Below, piece after piece: positions 7,158 through 25,783 of a DNA stretch of 33,180 nt; positions within the stretch are counted from its first letter, which is position 1, and every line of letters starts with the position of its first letter. Both the position numbers and the translations under genes were made by a program. Under the pieces are notes generated by a model. The model had not been told where the DNA came from. It worked only from the letters and a program-made list of their open reading frames with translations, and did not search any database. This DNA is from Clostridium sp. GTDB lineage: Bacteria; Bacillota; Clostridia; Clostridiales; Clostridiaceae. The stretch is taken from contig NZ_JAENWM010000040.1 of NCBI RefSeq assembly GCF_016650035.1, positions 1 through 33,180 on the forward strand, read 5' to 3'.

Positions 7158-7637
7158 ATGAACATAACTATAATTTGTGTAGGGAAAATAAAAGAGAAAT
7201 ATTTAAAAAGTGCTATAGATGAATATTCAAAAAGACTATCTAGATACTGTAAACTGAGCATTGTTGAATTAAGCGATGAGAAAACTCCTGATAATGCTTC
7301 TGAAAAAGAAGAGATTATAATAAAGGGTAAAGAAGGGGGAGCAATACTTAAGAGCATAAAGGATAACATGTTTGTTATTGCTTTAGAGCTAAAGGGAGAT
7401 ATGATATCTTCAGTGGAGCTTTCAAATTATATAAGAGATTTAGGAATAAAGGGTGAAAGTAATATAGCTTTTGTTATTGGGGGTTCATTAGGGTTATCTA
7501 AGGCAGTTTTGGAGAGAGCTAATTACAAATTATGCTTTTCAAAAATGACTTTCCCACATCAGTTATTTAGGGTGATGCTGCTTGAGCAGGTGTATAGAGG
7601 GTTTAGAATAATAAGTGGTGAACCGTACCATAAATAA
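7158..7637 (+). CDS. rlmH: 23S rRNA (pseudouridine1915-N3)-methyltransferase RlmH
   Basis: A 159-aa SPOUT methyltransferase that methylates pseudouridine 1915 of 23S rRNA in the assembled 70S ribosome. It has the family length and conserved features: start NITIICVGKIKEKY, the AdoMet-binding GGSLGLS, and the C-terminus FPHQLFRVMLLEQVYRGFRI ending GEPYHK. AAGGAG precedes the ATG. The last codons (GGT GAA CCG TAC CAT AAA TAA) are the attachment site used by the element to the right, so the gene stays intact after insertion, exactly as at the staphylococcal SCC site. Confidence 0.97.
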   Translation: MNITIICVGKIKEKYLKSAIDEYSKRLSRYCKLSIVELSDEKTPDNASEKEEIIIKGKEGGAILKSIKDNMFVIALELKGDMISSVELSNYIRDLGIKGESNIAFVIGGSLGLSKAVLERANYKLCFSKMTFPHQLFRVMLLEQVYRGFRIISGEPYHK

Positions 7638-7639
7638 CG
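7617..7639 (+). repeat. Left attachment site (attL) within the 3' end of rlmH
   Basis: GGTGAACCGTACCA, one variable base, then AAATAACG. It matches 25761-25783 at 22 of 23 positions (T7631 versus C25775). It encodes the last residues GEPYHK and stop of RlmH. Confidence 0.88.
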
Positions 7640-7649
7640 AGGACTTTTT
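7634..7649 (+). repeat. Left terminal inverted repeat of E1
   Basis: ATAACGAGGACTTTTT reads like the reverse complement of the right end (25735-25751, giving ATAACGTAGACCTTTTT), with small differences in the middle. A similar left-end sequence (ATAACGCGGATCTTTTA) starts E2 at 25778. Confidence 0.6.
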
Positions 7650-7738
7650 AGATAGGGAGAGTATAAGTGTCTTCGCCATCAATGAAAACCTCGGCAGAAG
7701 TGTCAAGTGTTATTTCATATGTATAAGTTTATAATTAG

Positions 7739-7767
7739 TAAAAAAAGAAAGTACTATTGTACTTTCT
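7739..7767 (-). terminator. Terminator for the minus-strand 119-aa gene
   Basis: AGAAAGTAC (7746-7754) and GTACTTTCT (7759-7767) form a 9-bp stem with loop TATT. On the minus strand the stem runs into six U (A7741-A7746 on the plus strand). The gene's stop codon lies at the edge of the stem. Confidence 0.7.
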
Positions 7768-8113
7768 CTTTATATATCCAACTAGTTAGATGTGAATTGA
7801 TAAACCTATTAAAGTATATTGATACCCAATAGTTATTATGAATAATTACGGTCGCTTTTGTAATGTTATTAGGATATAAACAAATATTAACTATTTTGCA
7901 TGATTTAAGAATATCTACACCTTTGATATTAATTTCTTTAATATCTGATGTTGGTGAAATAGCTATTAATGAACAGAAGTCAGAAACATCAGATGTACTT
8001 AAATCATCAAGCAAGAATAATAGGTCATCTGATAATATTTCTATAAATCTATTAGTAAATAAATTAGAGTTCTTTATACTTTCAAGATTAGTTGATGTGT
8101 TTACAATAAACAT
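7754..8113 (-). CDS. Hypothetical protein, divergent to the restriction-modification operon
   Basis: A 119-aa protein I do not recognise. On the minus strand GGGAGG is placed 6 bases before its ATG, which supports it over the opposite-strand ORF at 7863-8156. The sequence alternates short hydrophobic strands and acidic helices (for example SDDLLFLLDDLSTSDVSDFC) and has no visible helix-turn-helix, signal peptide or membrane segment. Its start is about 40 bases from the first of two 18-bp repeats around the restriction-modification promoter, so it could regulate or respond to that operon. Function unknown. Confidence 0.6.
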   Translation of the reverse strand: MFIVNTSTNLESIKNSNLFTNRFIEILSDDLLFLLDDLSTSDVSDFCSLIAISPTSDIKEINIKGVDILKSCKIVNICLYPNNITKATVIIHNNYWVSIYFNRFINSHLTSWIYKEKVQ

Positions 8114-8155
8114 AAATACCTCCCTTAGTAATTCTATAAATAATATATATTTATA

Positions 8156-8225
8156 AAATCAGACGTTTGTAGTTGACAAAATTATATGAGAGGCATATAA
8201 TGTAATTAAATCAGACGTTTGTAGT
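8156..8225 (+). promoter_or_regulatory. Restriction-modification promoter bracketed by 18-bp direct repeats
   Basis: TTGACA (8173-8178), a 17-bp spacer and TATAAT (8196-8201) make a consensus sigma-A promoter. Two identical copies of AAATCAGACGTTTGTAGT lie at 8156-8173 and 8208-8225, one ending in the -35 box and one just past the -10 box over the start-site region. A protein bound to both would block the promoter. The spacing (52 bp, about five helical turns) puts both sites on one face of the DNA. Confidence 0.8.
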
Positions 8226-8241
8226 CAAATGGAGGCGCAAT

Positions 8242-10362
8242 ATGAAAAAGTTAAACAAATATTATTTTATTGAATTCGAGAGCAAGTACAGTGTATTAGA
8301 CAAAATTGATTCAGATTGGTATAAAAATGAGTTAGCGGTAAAAGCATTTTGTAATGGAGCAAAGGTAAAAGATACAAATGGAAATTATTCAGAAGAGTGG
8401 TATAGAGCTAGATTTGTATATATGATGGTTAAATCAGGTAAATATGATAAAAACCTAATTTGTGTAGAGTTATCATTACCAAAGGGGAATGGTGGAAAAT
8501 CTATAAATCCCGATATTGTAGCATTTAAAAATAATAATTGGAGTAAATCTTTAGAGGATGGTGATTATGATAAGCTAAGGGCAGAGATATTAGTTGTTTT
8601 TGAGGCTAAAGATAATCCTGACGAAGTAGAAAAAGCTATTAAGAAACAAATTGAAGTAGCTTTAGAGAGAAGAGTTTCCACTGATAAATTTCAAGACTGG
8701 GCATATGGAGTATACTTTGACAATCAAGAAGATATAATCTTAATAAAAAAGGAAGGGTTAGCTGAGTTGGAAAGGTATAATATATCAAAGATGATACCAG
8801 CTAGCAAAAATATTGTAAGATTAAATGTTGCTGATAGAGATAGTCTAGAGGAACTACCTGAGCTTCAAAATTTAATAGCACAAATTGATAGAATAGCCGT
8901 AACTCATCAGTTTTATTTTGATGATTTAGACCCTATAGGGCAAGAAAGTTTTGAAGGGATACTTGATTATCTACAAAGAGAAAAGGATAAAATACAACAT
9001 CCGAATGCAAAGCGTTTATTAGTGGAAGCCTTAATGATTAAAGTAAATGAAGAAAATAATATAAAATTGAATGGTGAAAAATCATGTTTTTATATAAGTA
9101 AGGATGAAATAAGGACTAACGGTAGTGCTACTTTAGAATTTAGAAAAAGAATATATAAATTATATGAAGAAGCAAAAGAAAATTATAATGCATTAGAAGG
9201 AACTCAAAGATATATTAAGCATAGTGAAACTAATATTACGCCTATAAATCAGCATGATGAGAAAATGCTTATTGCTATTGTTAAATCTCTTCAAGGAAAA
9301 AGTATTCTTAGGGGAGTAACTACAAATTTTAATCAAACTATATTTAATAATTTTGGTGATGAAGTAGAAAAGACTGTTGCTGGTCAGTTTTTTACGCCTA
9401 TTCCAATAATATTAGCAATAATATCTATAATTAATCCGAGAGTAAATGAAACATTCATTGACCCTTGTTCTGGAATTTGTGATTTTCAAGCTATAGGATG
9501 GAAACATACTGGTGTAAAAGAAAATTCGAAAAATTACTATGGGGTAGATATATCTTCTACTGTATTAACCTTAGCAGAGCTAAATTTAGTACTTAATGGA
9601 GCGGGTACAATTAATTTATATCATAACAATTCGTTGTTTGAAAAGTTATGTATTGGAGGTCAATTCACAAATATAGATACATTCAATATAAATAATTATG
9701 ACCCATTGACATGGAAAAGTTTAGATAATAAAACACTGGATATTAAGAGATATGATACAGTTAATACTAATCCTCCTTTTGGACAAGGTAGAGATTTAAG
9801 AACTGGAAAAAATGGTATATGGGATTATGGACTTAACAGTGATATTATGAAAATGTATGAAACATGGTCTTTGTTAGGGGAGCCTAAAAGTATAGATATG
9901 GGAATTATATTTTTAGAAAATGCTTATAGGATAACTAAACCAGGTGGAAGATTTGCAATAGTATTATCTAATTCAATTGCATCAATACAAAGTTGGGATT
10001 CGGTTAGACTATGGTTATTTGAAAAGGTAAGATTAGTTGCTACAATAGATTTACCTCAAAATTGTTTTGGAGAAACGGGTGTATCTACTACAGTTTTAAT
10101 TGCATACAAACCAAAAGAAGATGAGAAAAGTGAACTTTTATCTGAAGATTATGACGTATTTACAAGGAATATAAAATACACTGGATATGAAGTTAAAACT
10201 GTAAAAAGAAACATTGTTTTTGAACCAGTAAAAGAAGTAGACCCTGTGACCCTAAAGGATACGGGGAAGCTTAAAGAAGATTTCACTAAGATGATAGGGG
10301 ACTTTGAGGAATATATGAAGTCACAAAATGCAATAATTAAGAGTGCATTTGGGAGAGGGTAA
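8242..10362 (+). CDS. Fused nuclease/N6-adenine DNA methyltransferase (type IIB/BcgI-like RM subunit)
   Basis: A 706-aa protein that joins cutting and methylating domains. The N-terminal part has a PD-(D/E)XK-type nuclease pattern: PD at 90-91 and EAK at 121-123 in hydrophobic strands (DIVAF, EILVVFEAK). The middle and C-terminal part is an HsdM-like N6-adenine methyltransferase: AGQFFTP, the AdoMet motif DPCSGICDF near 406-414, and the catalytic NPPF near 511-514. The next gene is an HsdS-like specificity subunit one base away. A methylase-nuclease plus separate S subunit, with no HsdR motor nearby, matches BcgI-type systems rather than type I. GGAGG precedes the ATG. Alternative: an HsdM with a non-cutting N-terminal domain. 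Confidence 0.82.
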   Translation: MKKLNKYYFIEFESKYSVLDKIDSDWYKNELAVKAFCNGAKVKDTNGNYSEEWYRARFVYMMVKSGKYDKNLICVELSLPKGNGGKSINPDIVAFKNNNWSKSLEDGDYDKLRAEILVVFEAKDNPDEVEKAIKKQIEVALERRVSTDKFQDWAYGVYFDNQEDIILIKKEGLAELERYNISKMIPASKNIVRLNVADRDSLEELPELQNLIAQIDRIAVTHQFYFDDLDPIGQESFEGILDYLQREKDKIQHPNAKRLLVEALMIKVNEENNIKLNGEKSCFYISKDEIRTNGSATLEFRKRIYKLYEEAKENYNALEGTQRYIKHSETNITPINQHDEKMLIAIVKSLQGKSILRGVTTNFNQTIFNNFGDEVEKTVAGQFFTPIPIILAIISIINPRVNETFIDPCSGICDFQAIGWKHTGVKENSKNYYGVDISSTVLTLAELNLVLNGAGTINLYHNNSLFEKLCIGGQFTNIDTFNINNYDPLTWKSLDNKTLDIKRYDTVNTNPPFGQGRDLRTGKNGIWDYGLNSDIMKMYETWSLLGEPKSIDMGIIFLENAYRITKPGGRFAIVLSNSIASIQSWDSVRLWLFEKVRLVATIDLPQNCFGETGVSTTVLIAYKPKEDEKSELLSEDYDVFTRNIKYTGYEVKTVKRNIVFEPVKEVDPVTLKDTGKLKEDFTKMIGDFEEYMKSQNAIIKSAFGRG

Positions 10363-10363
10363 T

Positions 10364-11827
10364 ATGGTGAAAAAATATATTAAAGAACCGAATACTCTTA
10401 AAAAGAGTGATATATTAAAAAAGATGTCTCTCTCAGGAAAAGATTACTGGGAGTTTATAGAAGTAGAAAATGGAGTTGAGCTAGATAAAATTGTAGAGCA
10501 CAAAGTAGGAGATTCTTTCTTAAGAGAAGACTTTACTTATGAAGATATTTGTAATGAGTTTAGATTTATAAAAACAGGGAACCTATCTCCTAATAAAATG
10601 TTAGTAGATTTTACGAGCACTCAATATTGTAAGCCTAATGGAGAGATTGCATTAGAGGATGGAGATATATTAATTGCAAAAGATGGTGGGGGAAATGGGT
10701 TAGCTGACACGAGTATATATTTTAAACTAGATGATTCTATTATTGCTGATTATTTTTGTGGAGAAGTACTGAGAATAAGAGTAAAAGAATCATATAATAA
10801 ATGGTATATATTTGCCATATTAAAATCTCAGTATTTTAAAGAATTCTTAGATGGGGTTACACCTGGAGGTTCTACATTAAGACACTCTAAGCTATTAGCC
10901 CTAGATATACTAATTCCATATAGCGAAGATAAAAAGGATGAAATAGAATATATAGCAACCTTGATGCAAAACTTAGTTGATAAAGAAATACAAATGAATA
11001 ATAAAATAAATTTAATAGACAAAAGAATAACGGATGAATTGGATATATCTAATAATAAGATAATAGCGAATCGGTATGCAAAAATAAGTGAAATGAAAGC
11101 AGCAAAAAGGGTGGATACAGGCATTTTTAGTGATGAATACAAAACTCTGGAAAGTAATGTAAAAAGCTATAAACATGGTTATTATCATATAAATAGTCAG
11201 AACATTTCACCAGGAAGAACCCCCGATGATTATAGGTACACGGATAAAAAAATTAATAATACGTTTTTATGGATAACTCCCAAAAATATAAATACTTTGG
11301 AGTTAATATATAGGACATATATTAGTACTAAAAGTACTAGCAAAATTGGTACCACTGATATAATACTATCTGGTATAAGATATTTAGGATATGGCTATTA
11401 TGATGATGGAGAAGAAGTTATATTTAGCAATCAGAATACTTTAGTAATTACTAATGATAGCAAAGATGAAAAAGAACAAATGTTTTTACTGGCTTTTTTA
11501 ACGTCATCAACAGGTAAAAAAATGCAAATGGCATGGAGAGTTGATGGAATGGTACCTATATTATACAAAGAGGGTATGTCAAATATTCCTATACCTAATT
11601 TCAACAGTGAGTTGAGAGAAGAATTGGTTAAAATATATTATAATAAAGTTTGCAGTATTAATAATTTAACACAAGAAAATTATTATTCAAAATCAGTAGA
11701 GAGAAATAAGGAATTGGGGATATATCAATTAAATAATGAAATTTTAAAACTTAAGGAATTCATTGAAAATAAAGTTGAAAAAATGATTTTTGGCACAGAA
11801 GTTGAAAAAAATTATGAAGTAATGTAA
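10364..11827 (+). CDS. Restriction-modification specificity subunit (HsdS-like)
   Basis: A 487-aa protein with two target-recognition domains, each followed by a helical spacer, as in HsdS and BcgIB. The first spacer is clear (LDILIPY, then an amphipathic helix through IEYIATLMQNLVDKEIQ). The second domain ends in IPIPNF and a helix near the C-terminus. Two different domains predict a bipartite, asymmetric target. I start at ATG 10364 because GGGAGAGGG sits 3 bases before it; the GTG at 10343 overlaps the upstream gene and has no site. The upstream stop is one base away, so the two are translationally coupled. Confidence 0.82.
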   Translation: MVKKYIKEPNTLKKSDILKKMSLSGKDYWEFIEVENGVELDKIVEHKVGDSFLREDFTYEDICNEFRFIKTGNLSPNKMLVDFTSTQYCKPNGEIALEDGDILIAKDGGGNGLADTSIYFKLDDSIIADYFCGEVLRIRVKESYNKWYIFAILKSQYFKEFLDGVTPGGSTLRHSKLLALDILIPYSEDKKDEIEYIATLMQNLVDKEIQMNNKINLIDKRITDELDISNNKIIANRYAKISEMKAAKRVDTGIFSDEYKTLESNVKSYKHGYYHINSQNISPGRTPDDYRYTDKKINNTFLWITPKNINTLELIYRTYISTKSTSKIGTTDIILSGIRYLGYGYYDDGEEVIFSNQNTLVITNDSKDEKEQMFLLAFLTSSTGKKMQMAWRVDGMVPILYKEGMSNIPIPNFNSELREELVKIYYNKVCSINNLTQENYYSKSVERNKELGIYQLNNEILKLKEFIENKVEKMIFGTEVEKNYEVM

Positions 11828-11931: not shown

Positions 11932-12294
11932 ATGATAGAAATTAGTTATTTAAAAGAAAAAGAAATTCTTAAAGGTCTACCATGGGAGGTACAAGAAAAC
12001 ATTAAAGGTATACTACAAATACTAGACAGAGAATATGGAGAAAACAGAAACAAGTACGAAGATAATGGAGGATATGTCTTGGTTATAGAAAAGGAAGAGG
12101 ACTTTAAAAAAATAAAACGTAAAGTATATATAGACTGTAATCATATTATTCCAGAATATGTCGACAGGGTAATATGCTCCAATTGCGAAGATTACACTAG
12201 TTGCTTAATAATTTGTAATAATGATTATGTGATTTCACTTATTATTCCAATGAAACTAACTCCACAAAATCTTATAAACTATATGATAGATTAA
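11932..12294 (+). CDS. Hypothetical protein with CxxC pairs
   Basis: A 120-aa protein I do not recognise. It starts after AGGAGG at a good distance. Features: an amphipathic N-terminal helix (EILKGLPWEVQENIKGILQI), then a central segment with CSNCEDYTSC that could bind a metal, then a hydrophobic strand. The last nine codons lie inside direct repeat A, so its C-terminus may have been shaped by the event that made the repeats. It stands alone between two terminators. Confidence 0.65.
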   Translation: MIEISYLKEKEILKGLPWEVQENIKGILQILDREYGENRNKYEDNGGYVLVIEKEEDFKKIKRKVYIDCNHIIPEYVDRVICSNCEDYTSCLIICNNDYVISLIIPMKLTPQNLINYMID

Positions 12295-12399
12295 AAGCCT
12301 TAATTACCGATACAACGGTGATTAAGGCTTTTGTTATTGCAAAAAAAACATTGGAGGTTTATTATTGCAATAAAAGTAACAAAGGAGACTAAATACTGT
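12272..12399 (+). repeat. Direct repeat A left of the radical SAM gene
   Basis: About 128 bp homologous to 13540-13666. It holds the end of the 120-aa gene, a hairpin (12293-12332), a GGAGG site and a decayed copy of the first codons of the gene at 13631 (shared AGACTAAATACTGT). The hairpin loop is inverted relative to copy B. Confidence 0.8.
12293..12332. terminator. Hairpin/terminator in repeat A
   Basis: A 17-bp stem (AAAAGCCTTAATTACCG with CGGTGATTAAGGCTTTT, one G-U pair) and loop ATACAA. The T4 end makes it a plausible terminator for the 120-aa gene. The same stem occurs at 13560-13599 with the loop in the opposite orientation. Confidence 0.65.
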
Positions 12400-12492
12400 A
12401 AAATTTAAAAATAATATAGAAACAATCAACATTTAACTATAGCTTGAACATATAAAAATTATATATTTAAAGGGGTTAATCAGATTTTATTC

Positions 12493-13335
12493 TTATAACC
12501 TTAGATTACAACAATCATCAGGATTGTAATTAATACTATTCTTCCAATATCTATAATGTTCTTCTACATCTTCACAAACTGAAATCTCTTTGAATCCTAC
12601 AATATTACTTAAATAATCAATTTTCTTTTCTAAAGGAAGATGTTTATATCCGCCTGAAATTATTGTGTACTCACTATAATCTATATCAAACCATTTTTGA
12701 ATCCATGTATTAATCCTTAAAAATTCAACAAGTATTTTATCACATTTCACATCATTTATTAAATTAAAATCTATGAATTTAGGAATAAAAGGTGACAATC
12801 TTAATTGAACATCGAAACCTAAAGAATATAGTTTTTCTATAGCTTCTATTCTTTTGGATGGAACCGATGCTTTTTCATATGTTTGAGAAAATTTATCATC
12901 TGTTGAAGTGACTGAAATCTGTATATGAGCAAGCTTTTTATCAAGTATAGCAATATACTCATCATCTGCAATGAGATGGCTTTTTGTTACTATAAGATAA
13001 TGTTTTTTGTGGGAATTTAACTCCTTAATAGCATTGTAGCTATTTCTTATCTGCTTTTCCATTGGCATAAAACAATCGGTCATGCCACCTAGCCTAACAC
13101 AAATATCATTTGGTAATAATGAAATTCTTTTTCTTACTTTTGAGATATCAGCAACTTTAGGTTGTTCGCTGTTCCAATGCTTTCTAAAATTCAATAAACT
13201 TTTTGAAAAACAGTAAGAACAATCATGTTGGCATCCACAACCATATACATCAAGCCTTGTAGAATAATTACATCTACTTCCCTCACCACCTACAACTTTA
13301 CGATAAAAACTTTTATATTCAAGTATTTCTTGCAA
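12493..13335 (-). CDS. Radical SAM protein (SPL-like)
   Basis: A 280-aa radical SAM enzyme. The [4Fe-4S]/AdoMet motif CQHDCSYC (Cys35, Cys39, Cys42) and the preceding Cys33 are visible, followed by GGMTDCFMPMEK and a TIM-barrel-like pattern (HYLIVTKSHL, HIQISVTSTDD, VQLRLSPFIP). It resembles the spore-photoproduct-lyase-like radical SAM group common on phages and islands; the substrate is unknown. The start is TTG at 13335, with GGTGGG upstream as a modest ribosome binding site. It is the only clearly cargo-like gene on the minus strand in the middle of E1 and lies between direct repeats A and B, suggesting separate acquisition. Confidence 0.78.
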   Translation of the reverse strand: MQEILEYKSFYRKVVGGEGSRCNYSTRLDVYGCGCQHDCSYCFSKSLLNFRKHWNSEQPKVADISKVRKRISLLPNDICVRLGGMTDCFMPMEKQIRNSYNAIKELNSHKKHYLIVTKSHLIADDEYIAILDKKLAHIQISVTSTDDKFSQTYEKASVPSKRIEAIEKLYSLGFDVQLRLSPFIPKFIDFNLINDVKCDKILVEFLRINTWIQKWFDIDYSEYTIISGGYKHLPLEKKIDYLSNIVGFKEISVCEDVEEHYRYWKNSINYNPDDCCNLRL

Positions 13336-13501: not shown

Positions 13502-13621
13502 GTGAATGAAAATAAGGATACCAATAACATTACAGGGTTTTATAAACTATATGATAGATTAAAAGCCTTAATCACCGTTGTATCGGTAATTAAGGCGTTT
13601 GTTATTGCAAAAAAAACATAG
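13502..13621 (+). CDS. Small protein, 39 aa
   Basis: A GTG-start ORF with GGAGG 7 bases upstream. It encodes a hydrophilic N-terminus and a basic, hydrophobic second half (LKALITVVSVIKAFVIAKK) that could be one membrane-associated helix. Most of it lies in repeat B, including the hairpin. Its stop overlaps the ribosome binding site of the next gene (13631), so it may serve as a leader peptide coupling translation of that operon. Confidence 0.45.
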   Translation: MNENKDTNNITGFYKLYDRLKALITVVSVIKAFVIAKKT

Positions 13622-13666
13622 GAGGTAATTATGGCAAGAAAAATAATAAAAGAGACTAAATACTGT
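13540..13666 (+). repeat. Direct repeat B right of the radical SAM gene
   Basis: Homologous to repeat A (12272-12399), starting with TTATAAACTATATGATAGAT in both. Within the hairpin the central sequence is the exact reverse complement of that in A (ATCACCGTTGTATCGGTAAT here). It runs into the intact gene at 13631. Confidence 0.8.
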
Positions 13667-13924
13667 CAGATATTAAATCAAGGAAAATTAGCTGATGAAG
13701 AGTATACCTATTGTATCGAAAAGATATTTATTAAGGATAAGAAGAGGGATGAAATTAGGTTCAGCTTGTATAAGGATACTATAAAATCAAAAGAGAGGTA
13801 TGTTCCACGTTCATTAGATGTAACAGAAGAACAGCTATTGCAACTAATGAAGGAAGCATTATCAGGAGCAGTATTTTCAAAAGAATTTGTAAAAAGTTTA
13901 GCTGAAATATTAAATGTAAAATAA
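13631..13924 (+). CDS. Hypothetical protein, 97 aa
   Basis: Not recognised. AGGAGG is correctly placed for the ATG. A soluble, charged protein with predicted beta strands in the first half (CQILNQGKL, YCIEKIFIKD, RFSLYKDT) and a helical end. It is first in an apparent operon of accessory element genes (this gene, radC, a DUF960 gene, an ecsC-like gene, a 64-aa gene), all on the plus strand with short gaps. Its first codons are duplicated in decayed form at 12355-12399. Confidence 0.65.
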   Translation: MARKIIKETKYCQILNQGKLADEEYTYCIEKIFIKDKKRDEIRFSLYKDTIKSKERYVPRSLDVTEEQLLQLMKEALSGAVFSKEFVKSLAEILNVK

Positions 13925-13946
13925 ATAATTGAAAGAAGGTAGGAAT

Positions 13947-14465
13947 ATGTCAAAGAGCACATATTGTGTTGATAAAATAGACGGAGGTAAAAAGGAAATG
14001 ATAACAGCAGAAAATAAGAATACACCTGCTAAAAGGATAAACATAGTATCTATAAAAATGGTAAGAGAAGCAACTATCCTATACAACATACGAAAGATAA
14101 CGAGCCCAACAGATGCGGTGGAGCTTGGAAAAAAAATTCTTGAAGACTCAGACCGTGAACATCTATGGCTACTTTGCCTTGACACGAAAAATCAGCCAGT
14201 TGCACTGAATGAAGTTTCGGTAGGGAGCCTTTCTAGCTCGATTGTTCATCCAAGAGAAGTTTTTAAGGCTGCAATTCTAAGCAATGCAGCTTCAATAATA
14301 CTTTTTCACAATCATCCATCAGGAGACCCTTCAGCTTCCAATGAAGATATAAAAATCACAACAAGGATCAAAGAATGTGGGGAGATACTAGGGCTTCCGC
14401 TTATTGACCACATCATTATTGGGAATGAAAGTTATTGTAGCCTAAAAGAAAAAGGAATATTATAG
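13947..14465 (+). CDS. radC: RadC/JAB-domain protein
   Basis: A 172-aa protein of the RadC family with the JAB-type metal motif HNHPSGDPSASNED at 121-134 and the upstream conserved DTKNQPVALNEVSVGS. It lacks the N-terminal helix-hairpin-helix domain of chromosomal RadC, as is usual for copies on mobile elements. Despite the name, a repair role is doubtful; the element-borne copies are of unknown use, possibly in handling element DNA. The start is ATG 13947 with AAGGTAGGA upstream; the TTG at 13929 is rejected. It precedes a DUF960 gene by 14 bases. Confidence 0.88.
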   Translation: MSKSTYCVDKIDGGKKEMITAENKNTPAKRINIVSIKMVREATILYNIRKITSPTDAVELGKKILEDSDREHLWLLCLDTKNQPVALNEVSVGSLSSSIVHPREVFKAAILSNAASIILFHNHPSGDPSASNEDIKITTRIKECGEILGLPLIDHIIIGNESYCSLKEKGIL

Positions 14466-14479: not shown

Positions 14480-14788
14480 ATGTTTGATAATGCTAGGTAT
14501 ATTACAAACGGAATAAATGAAAAAGTTGGTGAATCCATCCAAGTAGCATTATGGAACTTTATTGACTTATTAAAGCTAAAAAAAGATTTTACAATAGATT
14601 ATCTACAAGTATTTGAACTTAGAGAAATAAGGAATAGTAAGACTTTTAATCAAGAAATAGTACACTCACAGGAAGAGCCATTATACAAGAAACATTACTT
14701 GATATCCGTTGATAAGCCTATTAATACTAAAGTATATGTAATAGATGACTCACAACAAAGCGTGCTTATGTTAGCAGACGAGTATTAA
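14480..14788 (+). CDS. DUF960-family protein
   Basis: A 102-aa protein whose start (MFDNARYITNGINE), central DYLQVFELREI and the later QEEPLYKKHYL pattern match DUF960, a small soluble family regularly found on SCC and other Gram-positive elements. Function unknown. GGGAG precedes the ATG. Its presence with RadC and a Cch-like ATPase is part of the evidence that E1 has an SCC-type backbone. Confidence 0.78.
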   Translation: MFDNARYITNGINEKVGESIQVALWNFIDLLKLKKDFTIDYLQVFELREIRNSKTFNQEIVHSQEEPLYKKHYLISVDKPINTKVYVIDDSQQSVLMLADEY

Positions 14789-17243: not shown

Positions 17244-17558
17244 ATGTTTATGCGACAAGGAATGATTGGGGAAGGAACTTGGAAAATAATGGTGGAGAGT
17301 GCAAACAATATTAAATTTGGGAATGGATCAGAAGCATTAAGGATAGGGGTAACAACTAAGGATGGTATGACTGGCAGCTTTCTTATATTTACTAATAATA
17401 ATTATTTGATTAATAAGTTGTTAAACTGTGTGTATTATGACGGGGTACCAAGACAAGAAGAAATAGACATACAATATTTTGTAAGTAGTATGTTAACCAT
17501 AACAACTAAAGAAAATAATGGATACTTAAACATTGTAGATATTAACCCTTTTGAATAA
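17244..17558 (+). CDS. Hypothetical protein upstream of the Cch-like ATPase
   Basis: A 104-aa protein, not recognised with certainty. GGAGG precedes the ATG. It is rich in predicted beta strands (EALRIGVTTKDGMTGSFLIF, IQYFVSSMLTITTKE). In staphylococcal SCC elements a small single-stranded-DNA-binding protein is encoded next to the cch helicase. Size, position and strand-rich pattern make this a candidate for that role, but I see no decisive motif. It is 61 bases ahead of the ATPase and likely co-transcribed. Confidence 0.6.
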   Translation: MFMRQGMIGEGTWKIMVESANNIKFGNGSEALRIGVTTKDGMTGSFLIFTNNNYLINKLLNCVYYDGVPRQEEIDIQYFVSSMLTITTKENNGYLNIVDINPFE

Positions 17559-17619: not shown

Positions 17620-19524
17620 ATGATGAAGAAGCAAAGAGAATGTCCCTTAGGAGGATTTCCACGTAAAAGAAATAAAGATGGGTCATTACAAACAATGGAT
17701 ACTTTAAATAACTCAATAACAGATGGAGATAATTGTTTAAGAGAGAATATAAGTAAGAGAGCAAATAGTAGCTTGGGAGATGTAATGGATGGAACCGAAA
17801 AAAGATTTACATCAGATTATCCTTTCAATACCGAGAGGGCAGATAGTGTGTCTACACCTTGTACAAGGTTGGAAATAGAAATACAACCAGAAACAGCAAT
17901 AGCTGAAATTAAGGGTAACATGAATAAATATAAGTGTGATGAAAATGGAGTTTATTTAATGAATAGTGGGAAAAAGATATCTAATTATATTGAAATAAAG
18001 GAAATTATTACGAATATAGAAGATTCAACTTGTAAAGCAATTTTAAAATATAAATCATTCGAGGGAATCAAAGAAAGAACAGTTAATAGAGAAAATTATT
18101 TAAATAAAAGAAATCTAATATCACTTCAAAAGTATGGAGTAGATATTACAAATTCTAATTCTGGGCAGTTAGAGGAGCATCTTAGGGAGTGTGAAAATAA
18201 TGCACTGGTGAAAAAAGTGCATTCAAAATTAGGGTTTTCAAAAAATGGTGATAAAGAAATATATAATTTGTATAATTCAATAGGTATTGACTCTGAGTAT
18301 GTAGGTAACTACGAACTTAAACCGCAAGGTAGTAGAGATGAATATGTAGAAATGTTAAAAAGAGAAGTTATTGGAAAATGTGAATTAGAATTTGCAGTTA
18401 TAAGTGGGTTGTCAGCTATACCTCTAGCATTTGTAGGGGAAGAGTTAGGATTAGATACTATGATAATTCATTTAGTAGGAAATTCAACTACAGGTAAATC
18501 TACAGCATTAAAGTTAGCAATATCTATGTTCGGATATCCTGATGTAAAGAAGACTGGATTGTATGGAACCTATAACGGAACTAATAACGCACTGCTAAAG
18601 AAGTTAACTTGGTTGAAAGGTGTTCCTTATGCTATAGATGAGATATCAATGTCAAATACAACAAATTTCACAAATTTCATATATGCTTTAGCTAATGGAA
18701 CGGATAAAGATCGTCTAAATAAAGAGTGTGAAATAATAGAAAGTGCAACGTGGTTAACTACTATACTATCAAATGGAGAGAAATCTTTAATTGGTTCAGC
18801 TAGTAAGAACGCTGGCGTTCAGATTCGAGTAATGGAAGCAAGTAATTTTGAATGGACTAAAAGTGCGGAAAATTCTGAAACTATAAATAATGCTATATTA
18901 AAAAACTATGGTCACCTAGGAATTGAATTTGCAAGCTATGTTATAAGTATAGGTAAATCTAAATTAATACAACAATTTAAAGTTATTAAGGAAAACCTGT
19001 ATAAGATTATGGATGAAAAGCTTATTCTTGATAATATGGCTATGAGAAGGTGCAATAAATATGCGATTTTATTACAAACTGCGAAGCTATTCCAAAATAT
19101 GATGGATATTAAGTTAGATATTGAAGGTATAACTAGCATGATACTAAAAATAGAAGAACAATCTTTAAGTAATAGAAATTTTGGAGTTTCAGCTATAGAC
19201 TACATCAAACAATACGTTTCTAAGTATAAGAACAAATTTGATGATGGAGGCAAAACGTATGGTGATATATTTGGTAAGATAATACAAAAAAAATCTTGCA
19301 CTGAGTTACAAATGAACAAAATAGCCTTTAATGACATGATAATATCAGCGGGATACGAAAATAAAAATATAGTGCTCAAGGAACTAAAGAATGCTGGAAA
19401 GCTAAGTTGTGAAAAAGGTAGATTAACTAGAAGTAGAAATAATTCATTAGGATATAAGGAAGAAGTATATGTAGTTATAATAGATGGATATGAATTATTG
19501 GGGGAAAACCCCGTTTCCCCATGA
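17620..19524 (+). CDS. DUF927/Cch-like ATPase (element helicase)
   Basis: A 634-aa protein with a P-loop ATPase in its second half: Walker A GNSTTGKST near 287-295, Walker B-like PYAIDE near 334-339, then a Gly/Asn-rich region and an arginine-containing segment (VQIRVMEAS). This matches the DUF927 family, which includes the Cch self-loading helicases of SCC elements. The first 110 residues are hydrophilic and low in structure; the middle resembles a DNA-binding region (EIKEIITNIEDSTCKAILKY). AGGAGG precedes the ATG. Expected job: unwinding or replicating the excised circle. Not close to RepA-type initiators, so helicase is the better guess. Confidence 0.78.
   Translation: MMKKQRECPLGGFPRKRNKDGSLQTMDTLNNSITDGDNCLRENISKRANSSLGDVMDGTEKRFTSDYPFNTERADSVSTPCTRLEIEIQPETAIAEIKGNMNKYKCDENGVYLMNSGKKISNYIEIKEIITNIEDSTCKAILKYKSFEGIKERTVNRENYLNKRNLISLQKYGVDITNSNSGQLEEHLRECENNALVKKVHSKLGFSKNGDKEIYNLYNSIGIDSEYVGNYELKPQGSRDEYVEMLKREVIGKCELEFAVISGLSAIPLAFVGEELGLDTMIIHLVGNSTTGKSTALKLAISMFGYPDVKKTGLYGTYNGTNNALLKKLTWLKGVPYAIDEISMSNTTNFTNFIYALANGTDKDRLNKECEIIESATWLTTILSNGEKSLIGSASKNAGVQIRVMEASNFEWTKSAENSETINNAILKNYGHLGIEFASYVISIGKSKLIQQFKVIKENLYKIMDEKLILDNMAMRRCNKYAILLQTAKLFQNMMDIKLDIEGITSMILKIEEQSLSNRNFGVSAIDYIKQYVSKYKNKFDDGGKTYGDIFGKIIQKKSCTELQMNKIAFNDMIISAGYENKNIVLKELKNAGKLSCEKGRLTRSRNNSLGYKEEVYVVIIDGYELLGENPVSP
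19501..19520 (+). repeat. GC-rich inverted repeat at the 3' end of the ATPase gene
   Basis: GGGGAAA-ACCCCG-TTTCCCC lies over the last codons. A related GGGGAAAAGGG occurs at about 19606. In an otherwise AT-rich stretch these stand out; they could be a processing or origin signal for the ATPase. Nothing else was seen in 19525-19719. Confidence 0.35.
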
Positions 19525-20097: not shown

Positions 20098-20249
20098 TAT
20101 TCAAAGAATATAAACCTAAAGTATAACGTAAGAGGAATAGGAGCTTGTTATAAGAGTTTATTAAGAATCCAATGGAAATTAATTTTCTTATAAAAAGCAA
20201 GTTTCTAACCTATTATTAGACAAAATCAATTAATGATGGGGGAATGACA

Positions 20250-20645
20250 ATGTTTGCGTCTGATGTCGAGTTTGTTATTAATGAATATACCACCAATGGA
20301 ATAAGTAGAATGTCATTGACTGATGAAATTATATTAGCAATTTGTGTAAATCCGTGTTATGACTGGTTTCAAGAAAATTGTAATATTAGTTATAAATTAT
20401 TGAAAGGATTTGTAACAAACATTGTTCCACTTGGTGATGCTGGAAGAAATTATTTTGAAAATATTGCAGAAAAGAAGATTGGCTTTACTATTGAATTAAT
20501 GTCTTTATATAATCGTTTAGAAAAAGAATTTATTAAAGGAACTCTAAGGATAAAATCTTATTTAGAATTACAACATTTAGGATATACAGGTACAATTTTA
20601 TATGAAAATTGTCCTGTTGATGATGTTTGGGAGTTTATAAAGTAA
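20250..20645 (+). CDS. Hypothetical protein, 131 aa
   Basis: Not recognised. Two start codons are close together: ATG 20244 is only one base from the GGGGGA site, so ATG 20250 with a 6-base spacing is preferred. A mixed alpha/beta soluble protein with few charged runs; the C-terminus (LELQHLGYTGTILYENCPVDDVW) looks folded. No signal peptide or membrane segment. It is part of the set between helicase and recombinase. Confidence 0.65.
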   Translation: MFASDVEFVINEYTTNGISRMSLTDEIILAICVNPCYDWFQENCNISYKLLKGFVTNIVPLGDAGRNYFENIAEKKIGFTIELMSLYNRLEKEFIKGTLRIKSYLELQHLGYTGTILYENCPVDDVWEFIK

Positions 20646-20721: not shown

Positions 20722-20847
20722 ATGAAAAAGGAAAGCGTAAGCTATGAAATAATGATAGATTTAATTACTAATATAGTTAAAAAGTACATTAATAATGATG
20801 GAGAGAAAAGTAAGGAGGCTAATGATAAATGCTTAAACGTAGGATAG
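20722..20847 (+). CDS. Small protein overlapping the recombinase start, 41 aa
   Basis: An ATG ORF after GGGGGA with good spacing. It encodes an amphipathic helix (YEIMIDLITNIVKKYINND) and a charged tail. Its last 19 bases overlap the recombinase start in another frame, and the recombinase ribosome binding site lies within it, so the two are likely translationally coupled. It may act only as a leader or may be a recombinase accessory factor. I know no named family for it. Confidence 0.5.
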   Translation: MKKESVSYEIMIDLITNIVKKYINNDGEKSKEANDKCLNVG

Positions 20848-22445
20848 TCGCTTATTTAAGGGTATCCACAGCTGAGCAAGCTGAGGAAGGTTATAGTATT
20901 GCAGGACAGGAAAATGTAATAAGACAGAAGTGTGAAGCGGAAGGCAAAGAGCTAGTTGCAGTATATGCTGATAAAGGTATAAGTGGAAAATCAATGATCA
21001 ATAGACTTCAACTACAGCAAATGCTCCAAGATGCTAAGGCAGGTAATTTCGATGAAGTTTGGACATGGAAGACAAACAGGTTAGCCAGGAATCAATATGA
21101 TTTACTTACAATAGTTAAAGAGCTAGAAAGGCATGATGTAGCCTTTAAAAGTTGTTCAGAAGCTTTTGAGACTACAACGCCAGCAGGAAAGCTGATGATG
21201 AATGTCTTGGCTTCAATAGGTGAATTTGAGAGAGAAACTATTGTGGAAAATGTTAAGATGGGCATGAAGCAGAGAGCAAGAACGGGAAAATGGAATGGTG
21301 GAACTGTACTTGGATATAAGTCGGTAATAATAAATGAGAATAATACAAGACTAGAAATAGTTGCACAGGAAGCAGCTATAGTTAAAATGCTATTTGACAT
21401 GTATGCTTCTGGTAAAGGACTAAAGGCTATTGCTAATCAGATTAACCATGAAGGATATAAAACTAAAAGGGGCAATATGTTTGGTGCAGGTGGAGTCAAA
21501 GATATACTAATGAATCCTCTTTATATTGGTAAGATACGTTATAATGTTAGAGAAAATTGGACAGAAAAGCGAAGAAAGGGTACAAATAAGTCACCAATAA
21601 TTGCGGATGGAGAACATGAAGCTGTAATTCCAATAGAATTGTGGGATAAGGTCCAAGTGCTATACAAGATGAAAGGGGGTAAACCTAAAAAGGCATTTGT
21701 AAGTAACTATATTTTAACAGGACTAATGAAATGTCCTGTTTGTGGATATTCAATGGTAGCAAGTAGGACTAAAAAGAAGCGTAAAGATGGTACGTATAAT
21801 GTAAATAGATATTATGTCTGTGGAAACTGGAGGAATAAAGGTACTGCCGCTTGCAATTCCAATGGAATAAGAGCCGACTATGCAGAAGAATATGTATTAT
21901 CAAGAGTTAAAGACGTAGTATTTAGTGAAAGGATACTAAAGGATATCGTAAAAAACCTAAACAGAGAAAGAAAGGACATAATAGTACCACTGGAAAAGGA
22001 ACTGGAGCATCTATCAAAGAGCCTAAAAGACCTAGAAAACAGAAAGAATAGAGTCTTTGAGCTATATGAAGATGGGACGATAGACAAGACAACACTGGCA
22101 CAAAGAATGGATACCATAACAGCAGATATAGAGGTGCAATCTAATCGTAGGATACAAATACAAATAAAGTTAGAAAATAATGATTCAGTAAACATACCTT
22201 ATGAGGTAGTAAGAAGTACATTGAGTGATTTTCAAAAGCTACTTGAAATAACGGCTCCAGAAGAAAAAAAATCTTTACTTCAATTAATAATAAATAAGAT
22301 AACCATAAAAGGTAAAAAGGATATAGAAAGCATAGTACTACACTTTGACGAAAAGGTACAAAAATATTTCATAAAAGATAAAGAAGGAGAATCTCCAAAT
22401 GATGGGGGTTCTTCTTCTTTTATTTTGTTTACAATAAAAATTTGA
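20829..22445 (+). CDS. Large serine recombinase (integrase of E1)
   Basis: A 538-aa site-specific recombinase. Domains: N-terminal resolvase domain with catalytic Ser13 (RIVAYLRVSTAEQ), the DKGISGKS and KTNRLARN motifs (about 49-85) and GEFERE; a recombinase domain (about 165-270); a zinc ribbon (CPVC near 303-306 with paired Cys near 331 and 341); and a coiled coil (about 385-460). This is the class that includes Ccr proteins and phiC31/TndX integrases. TAAGGAGG precedes the ATG. Inference: it cuts at the GGTGAACCGTACC core in rlmH and the E1 ends. The last 20 residues (DGGSSSFILFTIKI) are encoded by terminator-like DNA, suggesting a changed C-terminus. Confidence 0.92.
   Translation: MLKRRIVAYLRVSTAEQAEEGYSIAGQENVIRQKCEAEGKELVAVYADKGISGKSMINRLQLQQMLQDAKAGNFDEVWTWKTNRLARNQYDLLTIVKELERHDVAFKSCSEAFETTTPAGKLMMNVLASIGEFERETIVENVKMGMKQRARTGKWNGGTVLGYKSVIINENNTRLEIVAQEAAIVKMLFDMYASGKGLKAIANQINHEGYKTKRGNMFGAGGVKDILMNPLYIGKIRYNVRENWTEKRRKGTNKSPIIADGEHEAVIPIELWDKVQVLYKMKGGKPKKAFVSNYILTGLMKCPVCGYSMVASRTKKKRKDGTYNVNRYYVCGNWRNKGTAACNSNGIRADYAEEYVLSRVKDVVFSERILKDIVKNLNRERKDIIVPLEKELEHLSKSLKDLENRKNRVFELYEDGTIDKTTLAQRMDTITADIEVQSNRRIQIQIKLENNDSVNIPYEVVRSTLSDFQKLLEITAPEEKKSLLQLIINKITIKGKKDIESIVLHFDEKVQKYFIKDKEGESPNDGGSSSFILFTIKI
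22379..22432 (+). repeat. Repeat of a terminator module inside the recombinase 3' end
   Basis: About 50 bp closely matching 23432-23482 (shared AAGAAGGAGAATCTCCAAA and TTCTTTTATTTTGTTTA). The copy at 23432 is an intact terminator; this one reads through as coding sequence with a looser stem. Confidence 0.7.
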
Positions 22446-22453
22446 TTATTCAA

Positions 22454-23412: not shown

Positions 23413-23431
23413 AGTTATGAGGGAAGCTTAT

Positions 23432-23480: not shown

Positions 23481-23566
23481 ATTATTAGAATATAAATGGT
23501 TCTTCTTTTTATTTTAACTTAACGGTAAAGCATGAATGTATTTTATTAACGTTGTAGTATGATATG

Positions 23567-23595
23567 TTACTATGTATATTTTTGTATGATATAAT
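23567..23595 (+). promoter_or_regulatory. Possible promoter of the 422-aa/TIR-like operon
   Basis: TATAAT at 23590-23595 is preceded at 17 bp by a weak -35 (TTACTA). A very strong GGGGGGAGAG site follows at 23619-23628. Confidence 0.4.
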
Positions 23596-23636
23596 AAATA
23601 TATGCATATTTTGATTTTGGGGGGAGAGTATGAAGC

Positions 23637-24905
23637 ATGGCATATATTTTAACAACATTAATTACTAATAATATAAACAATGGGTCTTTATCTAATTTTC
23701 TTTTTAAATATCAATTTCATAAAGAATTTATTGAGTCTGGAAAAAAATATGAAGATTATATTGCTGAGTTAATAAATTCAGGGAAAATATCTTTTCAAAC
23801 ATTTAATGATTACCTATTTAATGAGTTATCTTATGGTAAGCAAAGGGAAACGTATGTTTATAAAATACATTCATTTAATAATATAATAAAAGATTCAAAT
23901 CAATTAATTGAAATAATGAAAAGTAATTATAATATAAATGAGATATATTATAATAAAATAGCGACAACATACTTTTCTAATGATGATGAGAAGAAGGAAT
24001 TAGTTGCTTTTAAAATAGTACCTAGCTTTGACGATAAAACTGTATCTAAAATAAAATTATTATTTGGATATAAAGTTGAAGTATTGGATAAAGATGATAT
24101 TAAGCAAAGTGAACACAGTTATGTAGCTGTAGAAGTAGATTTGGATAATAAAATTGTAGTGATAAAAGTTTCTCCAAAGGCAAAAGTAATACAGGATAGA
24201 CATAAACCAGATTTTTTATTTAGAAAGTATAAAGAAAAAGTATTTTCTTTATTTGATATTATTGTGGATGCCTTTAATTATACACACAAGGTAGTTTTGT
24301 ACAGAATGTGCGAAGATTTATATTCCCAAATATATAGAAAAATGGTTTCTATAAAACCTGTTGAAGTAGATACAATATTAGATAATACAACAAAAGAATT
24401 GATGGATACACTAAAAATTTCAGCTATAGAGATGAAAAAAACACAAAACAATATATTTGACATAAAAAGTAGCTTGGTGAAATTAATTGAACATCTATTA
24501 ATTTCAGATATAATTTATTCCAAAAAATTAGGTGAAGAAATTGAAGGTGTGGATGGGTTTGTTACATATTTAAAATTTAACGATGGTACCAATGTTAGCG
24601 CGAGATTAAGAGGTGAAAATTGTAAAGACCCTATATTTGATTCTGAAACATATATGGCTTTACGAAGCCCTATTGATAATTCGAAAAAGATTTCTGTACT
24701 TCAAGTGCTATGGTTGAGTAATGGGCAAGATTTAAGGACATGTTATGATACTAATAGCTCTGAGTTTTTAAACATTCATTTCTTTAAAAATTTAAGTGAG
24801 AAGGATTTTGATTATGGATATAGTAGATATACAAAATATGAACAAGCCCTTAGTTCGAAAGTTCTTGAAGTGGATAAAGATGATACCGAAATTGCATCTG
24901 AATAA
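23637..24905 (+). CDS. Unknown 422-aa protein paired with a TIR-like gene
   Basis: Not recognised. A large, Lys/Asp/Ile-rich soluble protein without signal peptide. Predicted layout: helical N-terminal part (1-110), a strand-rich middle (KELVAFKIVPSFDD; YVAVEVDLDNKIVVIKVSPK, about 120-190), a long helical section (about 195-290) and a mixed C-terminus. The strong GGGGGGAGAG favours ATG 23637. Its 3' end overlaps the TIR-like gene by 92 bases in a different frame, so the two are expressed together. In two-gene anti-phage systems such a partner is often the sensor; here that is inference only. Position at the right end of E1 is typical for cargo. Confidence 0.65.
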   Translation: MAYILTTLITNNINNGSLSNFLFKYQFHKEFIESGKKYEDYIAELINSGKISFQTFNDYLFNELSYGKQRETYVYKIHSFNNIIKDSNQLIEIMKSNYNINEIYYNKIATTYFSNDDEKKELVAFKIVPSFDDKTVSKIKLLFGYKVEVLDKDDIKQSEHSYVAVEVDLDNKIVVIKVSPKAKVIQDRHKPDFLFRKYKEKVFSLFDIIVDAFNYTHKVVLYRMCEDLYSQIYRKMVSIKPVEVDTILDNTTKELMDTLKISAIEMKKTQNNIFDIKSSLVKLIEHLLISDIIYSKKLGEEIEGVDGFVTYLKFNDGTNVSARLRGENCKDPIFDSETYMALRSPIDNSKKISVLQVLWLSNGQDLRTCYDTNSSEFLNIHFFKNLSEKDFDYGYSRYTKYEQALSSKVLEVDKDDTEIASE

Positions 24906-25734
24906 TTTAGATTATACAAAATTTGCGGAGTATACAGAAATATCTGACATAAAAGCACAAGACTTTTTTCAATATTTAAGTAGAAGCGGGTATATATATT
25001 TAAAAGTAATTACTAGATGCCCAAATTGTAATTGTGATTGTACGGTTGATACAAAATTATATGGTGCACTATTTGAATGTAACGATTGCGGTGAAGAATT
25101 TAATTGGAGGGATAGGATAGGATTTGCTAACTTTTCCTATAAAGTTAATCCCGATATAGTTATAGAAGATAAGAAGAAAAGGATTTCATCTCCTTTAGAA
25201 ATATTTGTGAATAGTGAAATACAACATGAGACAAAAGTTATAGAAATGGTAGATAAAATCAAAGACACAAAACAAGCAAGCGAGGAGGATATTAGGGTGG
25301 ATAGAAAAGAAAAGGTATTTATAGTACATGGAAGTGATGAAGCTACTGCAAGAAGAGTTAAACAATTTATAAAAGACGATTTAAATATGGAAGCCGTAAT
25401 ATTAATGGATGAAGTAAATTGTGGGCTAACTATTCCTGAGAAATTTGAGCAACGTGCTAATGAATGTTCCTATGCAGTAATAATAATGACTCCTGATGAT
25501 GTGCTTAAATACGAAGGGGATAATAAAATAATTTATAGGGCTAGGCAAAATGTAATTCTTGAATTGGGCTACTTTTGGGCTAAATGGGATAGAAAACAAC
25601 TTGCTGTTATTAAAAAAGGCAATATAGAAAATCCTTCTGACATACAAGGTGTTGTTTATTTAGAGTTTAATAAGCGTGTTGAAGAGGTTCTTTATGACTT
25701 AACTAGAGAAATTAAAGCTTCTTTAGGCATATAG
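24814..25734 (+). CDS. Zinc-ribbon protein with C-terminal TIR-like nucleotide-binding domain
   Basis: A 306-aa protein with three parts: a helical N-terminus resembling a winged helix (about 30-65), a zinc ribbon (CPNC at 69-72, CNDC at 89-92), and a TIR-like domain (about 167-300) of the group annotated as predicted nucleotide-binding protein. Signatures are KVFIVHGSDEATARRVKQF, the LDE-type acidic segment at 197-203, YAVIIMTPDD, and NVILELGYFWAKWDRKQ with candidate catalytic Glu250. In CBASS, Pycsar and Thoeris-like defence such domains degrade NAD+ once activated. No nucleotide cyclase is nearby. The start is ATG 24814 after GAGAAGGA; the GTG at 24796 is rejected. The gene ends exactly where the E1 right inverted repeat begins. 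Confidence 0.75.
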   Translation: MDIVDIQNMNKPLVRKFLKWIKMIPKLHLNNLDYTKFAEYTEISDIKAQDFFQYLSRSGYIYLKVITRCPNCNCDCTVDTKLYGALFECNDCGEEFNWRDRIGFANFSYKVNPDIVIEDKKKRISSPLEIFVNSEIQHETKVIEMVDKIKDTKQASEEDIRVDRKEKVFIVHGSDEATARRVKQFIKDDLNMEAVILMDEVNCGLTIPEKFEQRANECSYAVIIMTPDDVLKYEGDNKIIYRARQNVILELGYFWAKWDRKQLAVIKKGNIENPSDIQGVVYLEFNKRVEEVLYDLTREIKASLGI

Positions 25735-25751
25735 AAAAAGGTCTACGTTAT
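25735..25751 (+). repeat. Right terminal inverted repeat of E1
   Basis: AAAAAGGTCTACGTTAT. Its reverse complement matches the left end (7634-7649) in ATAACG, a central AGAC/GGAC and TTTTT. It begins at the base after the TIR-like gene stop. Confidence 0.6.
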
Positions 25752-25755
25752 AACG

Positions 25756-25783
25756 GGTACGGTGAACCGTACCACAAATAACG
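25756..25783 (+). repeat. First right attachment site (attR1) with a perfect palindrome
   Basis: GGTACGG-TGAA-CCGTACC (25756-25773) is a perfect 7-bp palindrome overlapping the 23-bp att copy (25761-25783). Only the right half is present in attL, because the left half there is rlmH coding sequence. Confidence 0.85.

Follow-up and report, generated by a model that had tools for sequence, protein, structure and literature searches.

The staphylococcal cassette chromosome (SCC) is the vehicle of methicillin resistance in staphylococci. In the available text of PMC10581047, recombination by CcrAB is stated to be centred on the dinucleotide GA, and the accessible part of PMC6222049 reports inverted repeats in attR and in the circular site of the enterococcal cassette chromosome (ECC), as well as restriction-modification (R-M) genes in staphylococcal SCC too. 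The placing of clostridial islands varies with the source: the former text counts C. difficile among the rlmH hosts, whereas the C. difficile and C. perfringens islands in the available portion of PMC10061031 sit in ssrA and not in rlmH. SCC-like islands at rlmH have already been published in other Bacillota; apparently new are the member described here and related tandem arrays of short (1–2 kb), recombinase-less cassettes in Clostridia, a literature search over titles and abstracts, with most subscription papers outside it, having returned no rlmH cassette in Clostridium and no short-cassette arrays. Here, we analyse a stretch of 33,180 nucleotides from Clostridium sp. (assembly GCF_016650035.1, contig NZ_JAENWM010000040.1; "the window"), in which an 18-kb block at the 3' end of rlmH is, with high confidence, an integrated cassette chromosome element of the SCC family endowed with its own CcrB-clade recombinase.

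The block comprises 18,144 bp at the rlmH last codons and lies between the two copies of a direct repeat of 34 bp (30 of 34 positions identical), at 7617–7650 and 25761–25794. An earlier annotation made from the letters of the window, hereafter the sequence-only reading, had proposed an SCC-like cassette on the basis of a shorter match, and its two copies (7617–7639 and 25761–25783) do agree at 22 of 23 bases. Across the 3.97-Mb genome, the 18-nt pattern of the rlmH end, GARCCNTAYCAYAARTRR, has two occurrences and no more, both on the same strand, and these are the two repeat copies; the insertion had thus been correctly located, with the refinement that the last codons belong to the site itself and are swapped rather than interrupted. 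As a control, the reversed pattern gave no copy in the source genome and one (in G077; genomes and loci carry our G and L numbers) in a set of 26 genomes, each chosen for a recombinase of this family or its remnant. The attachment sites attB and attP were rebuilt by a script joining the flanks, and symmetry was counted as complementary pairs out of 30 about the GA of GGT-GA-ACC. Both attP and attR reach 21 of 30, a value found at just 6 of 32,980 window positions, attR among them, and attL and attB stay at background level (10 and 8, respectively). In the rebuilt sites, the RlmH C-terminus SGEPYHK* is identical before and after insertion. Integration at the rlmH 3' end with flanking direct repeats, and inverted repeats in attR and attP around a central GA, are features by which the SCC family is recognised.

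An empty counterpart of the site is offered by a genome of the same genus (G008, RlmH 93% identical), in which rlmH is followed, after 12 nt, by an HI0933-like gene 88% identical to that of the window; the comparison of rlmH 3' regions suggested in the sequence-only reading is in this way answered within the genus, G008 not being of the same species. Between attR and the HI0933-like gene the window carries a TPR/PP2C-like gene pair, absent from this position in G008 and closed by a half-site, ATCACAAATAACGCAC, with one mismatch to the right half (0.10 matches expected at ≤1 mismatch). Judging from its borders, this segment of about 2 kb may be another short cassette whose end is worn. The extent first proposed, 7617–25783, has real boundaries, and the variable region probably runs past 25783, as indicated by the third, half-degenerate att site, the gene pair and the G008 neighbourhood.

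All of the large serine recombinase, the Cch/DUF927-like ATPase, RadC and DUF960 that had been placed inside the block were recovered by domain searches. Two staphylococcal references were used, p59736-1 (L115) and pRM27 (L116), with CcrA and CcrB above the NCBI cut-off in both and Cch1 in L115. Aligned against the NCBIfam models, as the sequence-only reading had proposed, the window recombinase matches CcrB best (E 7.5e-125, 417.6 bits), followed by CcrC (327.1), XisF (145) and CcrA (116); since both Ccr scores lie under the 900-bit cut-off for these names, it is a relative, and not CcrB by the NCBI rule. As a yardstick, true staphylococcal CcrB reaches 1136–1137 bits on the CcrB model and 271 on CcrC, and true CcrA 91–94 on CcrB. 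The recombinases of five site-linked relatives score 384–441 bits on CcrB and 326–373 on CcrC, and so stand as a separate group close to CcrB. The window protein has Ser13 and the zinc-ribbon cysteines, residues with presumed functional roles, in common with the staphylococcal CcrB (L115). The SCC family is further recognised by a Cch helicase and DUF960-type helper genes near ccr, and these are found as well, the Cch1 match lying below its equivalog cut-off. The best PDB match of the helicase is 5dgk ("Active helicase", E 4.8e-48), which we take to be the SCC helicase, and its conserved ATPase residues align with those of true Cch1; on these alignments, the ATPase is a Cch1 homologue. The 104-aa protein encoded just upstream, in the place of the gene for a protein like single-stranded DNA-binding protein (SSB), possibly has an OB-fold, the fold of the SSB-like protein that adjoins the helicase in the CcPol-MP/SSB replication module of SCC, and relatives of the 120-aa gene adjoin RadC or DUF960 in other cassettes.

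The repeated use of this site by relatives is equally evident. Genome contigs were scanned with recombinase peptides, and not via the site, which gave 23 loci in 22 genomes of Caloramator, C. homopropionicum, Tepidibacter, Priestia, Bacillus, Thalassobacillus, Brevibacillus, Paenibacillus and other Bacilli/Bacillota. At least one rlmH-end site lies in the examined DNA of all 23 loci, with rlmH in the examined locus for 14 and on the same contig for 2 more (L070, L073), 16 of 23 overall. The sequence-only reading had named, as an outcome that would speak against it, a recombinase whose closest relatives all use other targets; given the sites in 23 of 23 loci, the nearest relatives do not. A maximum-likelihood tree was built from 65 of the 81 collected recombinase rows, leaving out 6 duplicate, fragment or second-copy rows and 10 of 24 distant clostridial ones; the broken or partial recombinases of L089–L091 and one of two in L087 are outside the tree and counted among the 23 loci. 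By the NCBI cut-offs, the rows used as reference are genuine CcrA and CcrB. The window recombinase groups with those of Caloramator, B. salacetis, Priestia and C. homopropionicum (support 100/96), inside a clade of 26 rows that includes two staphylococcal CcrB (95/74; next larger clade 97/90) and whose other 23 rows all come from loci with rlmH-type sites; CcrA and three phage integrases fall outside it. By model scores and by tree, the enzyme is a Ccr-family large serine recombinase.

Wider profile searches agree with this placing. The CcrB profile found 18 of 391 Clostridia genomes at E≤1e-60, its own included, none above the cut-off and the window's protein being the best; in the next two, G459 and G391, the recombinase stands between same-strand rlmH-end sites, the first of which is rlmH's own in G391 and not in G459. 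Among 398 Bacillota, the CcrC profile found 4 genomes, again with its own, and the others have rlmH (G842, G504) or an rlmH-end site (G493) beside the recombinase. More distant recombinases were seen with flanks of 1.5 kb, and missing att sites there are not counted as a control. Two further observations concern the target: Paenibacillus sp. N3.4 (L113/L114) has a partial second rlmH 3' end (residues 114–155) about 1.1 kb from the full rlmH, and immediately behind the rlmH stop codon two loci from different genera (L060, L063) have in common a stretch of non-coding DNA, AGCAGAACTTAC..CAGCGAACG.ATGTGAGTCG.

In the mechanism that we propose, the recombinase would cut at the central GA in the fifth-last codon of rlmH (GGT-GA-ACC, within the GAA for Glu155 of 159), presumably at 7620–7621 in attL, and would join a palindromic attP on a circular cassette to the non-palindromic attB at the rlmH 3' end. 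Insertion would exchange the last codons of rlmH (A CCG TAC CAY AAR TAA) for an equivalent set borne by the cassette, the displaced copy passing to attR, and because of this equivalent set RlmH would still be made. The Cch1-like helicase and the small gene before it probably replicate the excised circle, the DUF960, RadC and 120-, 97- and 133-aa genes would act as a recurrent helper module, and the cargo probably helps the element to persist. Pfam searches of the 20 main cassette open reading frames (ORFs) revealed neither relaxase nor conjugation genes; transfer would accordingly depend on a helper.

The same site pattern also brackets much shorter intervals. In the 26-genome set, 23 genomes contain 63 same-strand intervals of ≤25 kb, including 17 shorter than 2.5 kb; in the sample of 391 Clostridia, drawn by class, there are at least 26 in at least 16 genomes besides the source, at least 8 being under 2.5 kb. 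In this sample the rlmH-end pattern is present in 102 genomes and the reversed one in 11, never twice in one among the matches listed, and no opposite-strand site pair within 25 kb is among the matches listed for either set. Tandem same-strand sites 1.2–2.0 kb apart (L147 in G206, L142 in G033, L141 in G019, L143 in G028) enclose mostly one or two ordinary genes with no match to the recombinase. In G033, three rlmH-end sites stand at and after rlmH, and a search of its whole genome at E≤0.001 gave no match to the recombinase; the cassettes there would thus have been brought in by a recombinase acting in trans or since lost. Genes in such 1–2 kb cassettes include an ARMT1-like phosphatase, a metallo-hydrolase, a DEAD helicase, a transporter and an AraC/GyrI-like regulator.

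For 46 cassette intervals from 29 chosen sources, the left flank of the downstream site was compared with the right flank of the upstream site of the same interval. Mean complementarity is 14.0, a value that 0 of 20,000 permutations reach. It is 11.1 when the flanks come from different sources and 11.2 when they come from different cassettes of one source, and the two sides of attR itself give 11.9; intervals under 2.5 kb (n = 14) give 12.2 versus 10.2 (8 of 20,000 permutations). An att-to-att interval therefore behaves, on average, like a unit with its own palindromic attP, single intervals being undecided, and as such a unit it would carry the last RlmH codons with it. The downstream sites are not copies of rlmH, since left of the GA they match it at the random level (46 sites, mean 5.8 of 18; random 5.7). 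Taken jointly, the rlmH 3' end could be an integron-like capture platform across Bacillota including Clostridia, where directional tandem arrays are assembled by CcrB-clade recombinases acting in cis or in trans, many of the cassettes being 1–2 kb long and recombinase-less, each with a palindromic attP that restores the RlmH codons; the 18-kb element, as one of the autonomous drivers, and the 2.1-kb TPR/PP2C segment would form one such array. We regard this joint reading as possible rather than probable. If confirmed, the short recombinase-less arrays would be to serine recombinases what cassette arrays are to integrons.

Several points weigh against assigning the block to the SCC family. The window proteins stay below the NCBI equivalog cut-offs for CcrB (417.6 of 900 bits), CcrC (327.1 of 900) and Cch1 (234.1 of 700), and identity to the staphylococcal CcrB (L115) is low, 38% over the full alignment. 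The ccrAB pairing is absent, recombinase domains being found, among the 20 cassette ORFs, in 20829–22445 only, and this solitary enzyme scores nearer CcrB, which works with CcrA in staphylococci, than CcrC. Support of the CcrB-containing clade is moderate (95/74), the tree is without any real CcrC sequence, and six clostridial rows adjoining the clade (e.g., L120, L123) are without a known site. Single intervals may do no better than chance in the complementarity test (10 in L153 and L141, 8 in one interval of G229), and in the window the two flanks of attR fit each other (15) as well as those of attP (14), so that this test alone does not mark the window interval. Furthermore, related cassettes or remnants lie away from rlmH in G004, G028 and G459 (in G459, rlmH is on another contig), and site preference is therefore not absolute. 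The left halves of these sites resemble that of rlmH at 14 of 18 positions in G028, 12 in G459, and 11 and 14 at two places in G004, while another site of G004 (L145), with 9, shows no such resemblance; among random GA positions, 12 of 18 is reached in 0.2% and 11 in 0.9% of cases. In this small sample, such likeness suggests secondary attB use. Sites or remnants away from rlmH were noted at L149 (872, 18455), L034 (9822, 13491), L036/L037 and L146, most with rlmH-like left halves.

The sequence-only reading had left the choice between a clostridial relative of SCC and convergence on the same site. In the latter case an unrelated serine-recombinase island would have settled at the rlmH end and acquired DUF927, DUF960 and RadC genes by chance; the rlmH site can indeed be reached more than once, given that in G045 (G045:C23:23429-24780) a distant serine recombinase with 28% identity, perhaps of an independent family using rlmH, lies directly beside the gene on the same strand. 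However, the window recombinase is closest to the CcrB and CcrC models, far above XisF, and groups with CcrB in the tree, and for Cch, DUF960 and RadC there are homologues in the ccr loci of staphylococci, making homology far likelier and convergence hardly credible. Very unlikely, too, is an integrative mobilizable element or satellite prophage at rlmH whose likeness to SCC would be limited to recombinase and helicase. The cassette size would fit a phage capsid, and 8tch ("Pathogenicity island protein", E 1.1e-13) comes second among the PDB matches of the helicase, but the best one is 5dgk and the best family model is SCC Cch1, and no relaxase, capsid, terminase or packaging match was obtained with the 20 ORFs in Pfam and subsets of them in NCBIfam, PADLOC and PHROGs.

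A further alternative is a decayed, immobile relic, in which repeats and genes are left and movement is lost. Decayed copies do exist in G028, G004 and G019, and in the window the radical SAM gene lies in a duplicated segment, an IS630-like remnant is present and the third att, downstream, is half degenerate. Recombinase and Cch nevertheless have uninterrupted frames across the conserved domains, neither of the outer att sites is damaged and the attP symmetry is kept, and we consider a relic unlikely. An integrated SCC-family element with its own CcrB-clade recombinase thus remains our interpretation of the block, whose features are collected in Table 1.

Table 1. Features of the rlmH locus, with positions in the window.
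Feature	Position	Strand	Evidence
rlmH, target gene, complete	7158-7637	+	Pfam SPOUT_MTase E 7.7e-59; single match in genome
attL: rlmH codons GEPYHK* plus flank	7617-7650	+	34-bp repeat, pattern match, symmetry test
N6-adenine methyltransferase (MTase) with N-terminal HSDR_N-like region	8242-10362	+	Pfam N6_Mtase E 9.1e-24; HSDR_N_2 2.8e-4, below its cut-off; mad2 / type I and II MTase models
Specificity (S)-like subunit	10343-11827	+	NCBIfam MAD5 E 1.2e-17, below cut-off; PADLOC Specificity_I
Small conserved cassette gene, 120 aa	11932-12294	+	67% in L149; weak in L032, L082
Radical SAM protein, between two module genes	12493-13335	-	Pfam Radical_SAM E 3.4e-12
Small conserved cassette gene, 97 aa	13631-13924	+	75% in L149
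RadC/JAB protein	13929-14465	+	Pfam RadC E 3.6e-44; homologue in ccr locus of pRM27 (L116)
DUF960 protein	14480-14788	+	Pfam DUF960 E 3.3e-22 (above Pfam cut-off); homologues in ccr loci L115, L116
EcsC-family protein, PADLOC candidate defence PDC-S29	14820-15449	+	PDC-S29 E 1.4e-79
IS630-like transposase-derived helix-turn-helix (HTH) protein	15854-16966	+	NCBIfam transpos_IS630 E 3.5e-18, below cut-off
104-aa protein in place of SSB-like gene upstream of Cch	17244-17558	+	
Cch1-like AAA+ helicase	17620-19524	+	DUF927 + Cch-HTH (HTH_56); Cch1 E 2.8e-69, 234 bits
Small conserved cassette gene, 133 aa, upstream of recombinase	20244-20645	+	47% in L149, there also upstream of recombinase
Large serine recombinase, CcrB-clade	20829-22445	+	Resolvase, Recombinase, Zn-ribbon domains; Ser13 and zinc-ribbon cysteines conserved
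422-aa protein, adjoins TIR gene	23637-24905	+	no family match
TIR protein, CAP12/Pycsar type, PADLOC PDC-S35	24796-25734	+	Pfam CAP12-PCTIR_TIR E 1.8e-34; PDC-S35 E 1.1e-47
attR	25761-25794	+	34-bp repeat, pattern match, symmetry test
TPR-like + PP2C-like gene pair	25872-27868	+	weak Pfam TPR, PP2C matches below cut-off
Half-degenerate third att site	27876-27891	+	one mismatch to AYCAYAARTAACGNNG; 12-mer CACAAATAACGC common to attR
HI0933-like flavoprotein, chromosomal gene adjoining rlmH in G008	28103-29305	+	Pfam HI0933_like E 4.2e-85; 88% in G008

Judged from their family names, the R-M, EcsC, TIR and radical SAM genes would be cargo, mostly anti-phage. The cargo announced by the sequence-only reading, restriction-modification, radical SAM and TIR-like genes instead of mec, is present, and Pfam matched none of the 20 cassette ORFs to a penicillin-binding or mec-regulator family. 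The product of 8242–10362 is probably an R-M fusion, with a putative nuclease part; just upstream of its gene, direct repeats of 31 nt (8143–8173 and 8195–8225, 84% identical, both with AAATCAGACGTTTGTAGT) are possibly an operator. The radical SAM gene is flanked by a duplicated segment of about 150 nt (D2/D3, 12257–12410 and 13525–13677), in which a 40-nt terminator-like palindrome stands between the end of one module gene and the beginning of the following one; in L149 the two module genes are adjacent, without radical SAM between them. By this arrangement of repeats, the radical SAM gene is an insertion by partial duplication. EcsC homologues occur in the recombinase-scan loci L078 and L084 (Paenibacillus) and L081 (Bacilli), searches of Pfam, NCBIfam and PADLOC gave no match to the 422-aa protein within the limits applied, and the true start of the TIR protein may lie further in.

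The block thus carries likely anti-phage genes in place of drug resistance, at the same gene end as SCC, and its R-M, EcsC and TIR cargo fits the view of rlmH as a hotspot of defence genes. A CcrB-clade recombinase, apparently working alone and accompanied by Cch and DUF960 but not CcrA, is found at these codons in Clostridium, Caloramator, Priestia, Bacillus and Paenibacillus, so that both a reservoir of Ccr recombinases and the origin of solitary versus paired enzymes can be tested. In addition, the common palindromic attP is a simple means to delimit cassettes in Bacillota genomes.

Among known and related systems, the cassette of Caloramator sp. SKW144 (L032/L069) has the same order RadC-DUF960-Cch-recombinase at the rlmH site, with a recombinase 61% identical, and its end is marked by an att site, behind which follows a Na+/H+ antiporter gene with 59% identity to window 29325–30710; unlike the window element, it is 11.5 kb long and has no tblastn match to the R-M, radical SAM, EcsC or TIR genes. 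With the rlmH-linked Pol-SSB/helicase islands of Bacillota, as far as described in the available part of PMC10061031, the window has in common a large serine recombinase, a helicase (with DUF927 in some islands), conflict genes, last-codon repeats and tandem composites, whereas no A-family polymerase was found by Pfam in its 20 ORFs. ECC, in the accessible text of PMC6222049, likewise uses rlmH and has a serine recombinase, DUF927 and DUF960 genes, inverted repeats in attR and in its circular form, R-M cargo and multiple attR sites, but it is enterococcal and its ccrAB genes are paired. Compared with staphylococcal ccrAB/Cch1 SCC, no SAUGI or DUF1643 homologue is among the window ORFs compared, the recombinase is single, with no CcrA and 38% identity to CcrB, mec is missing, and RadC-DUF960 stand upstream of Cch instead of downstream of ccr. 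The CcrB-clade recombinase, the Cch1-like DUF927 helicase preceded by a gene of about 100 aa, DUF960, JAB/RadC (L116), the rlmH-end site, the inverted repeats and the central GA are all as in staphylococcal SCC.

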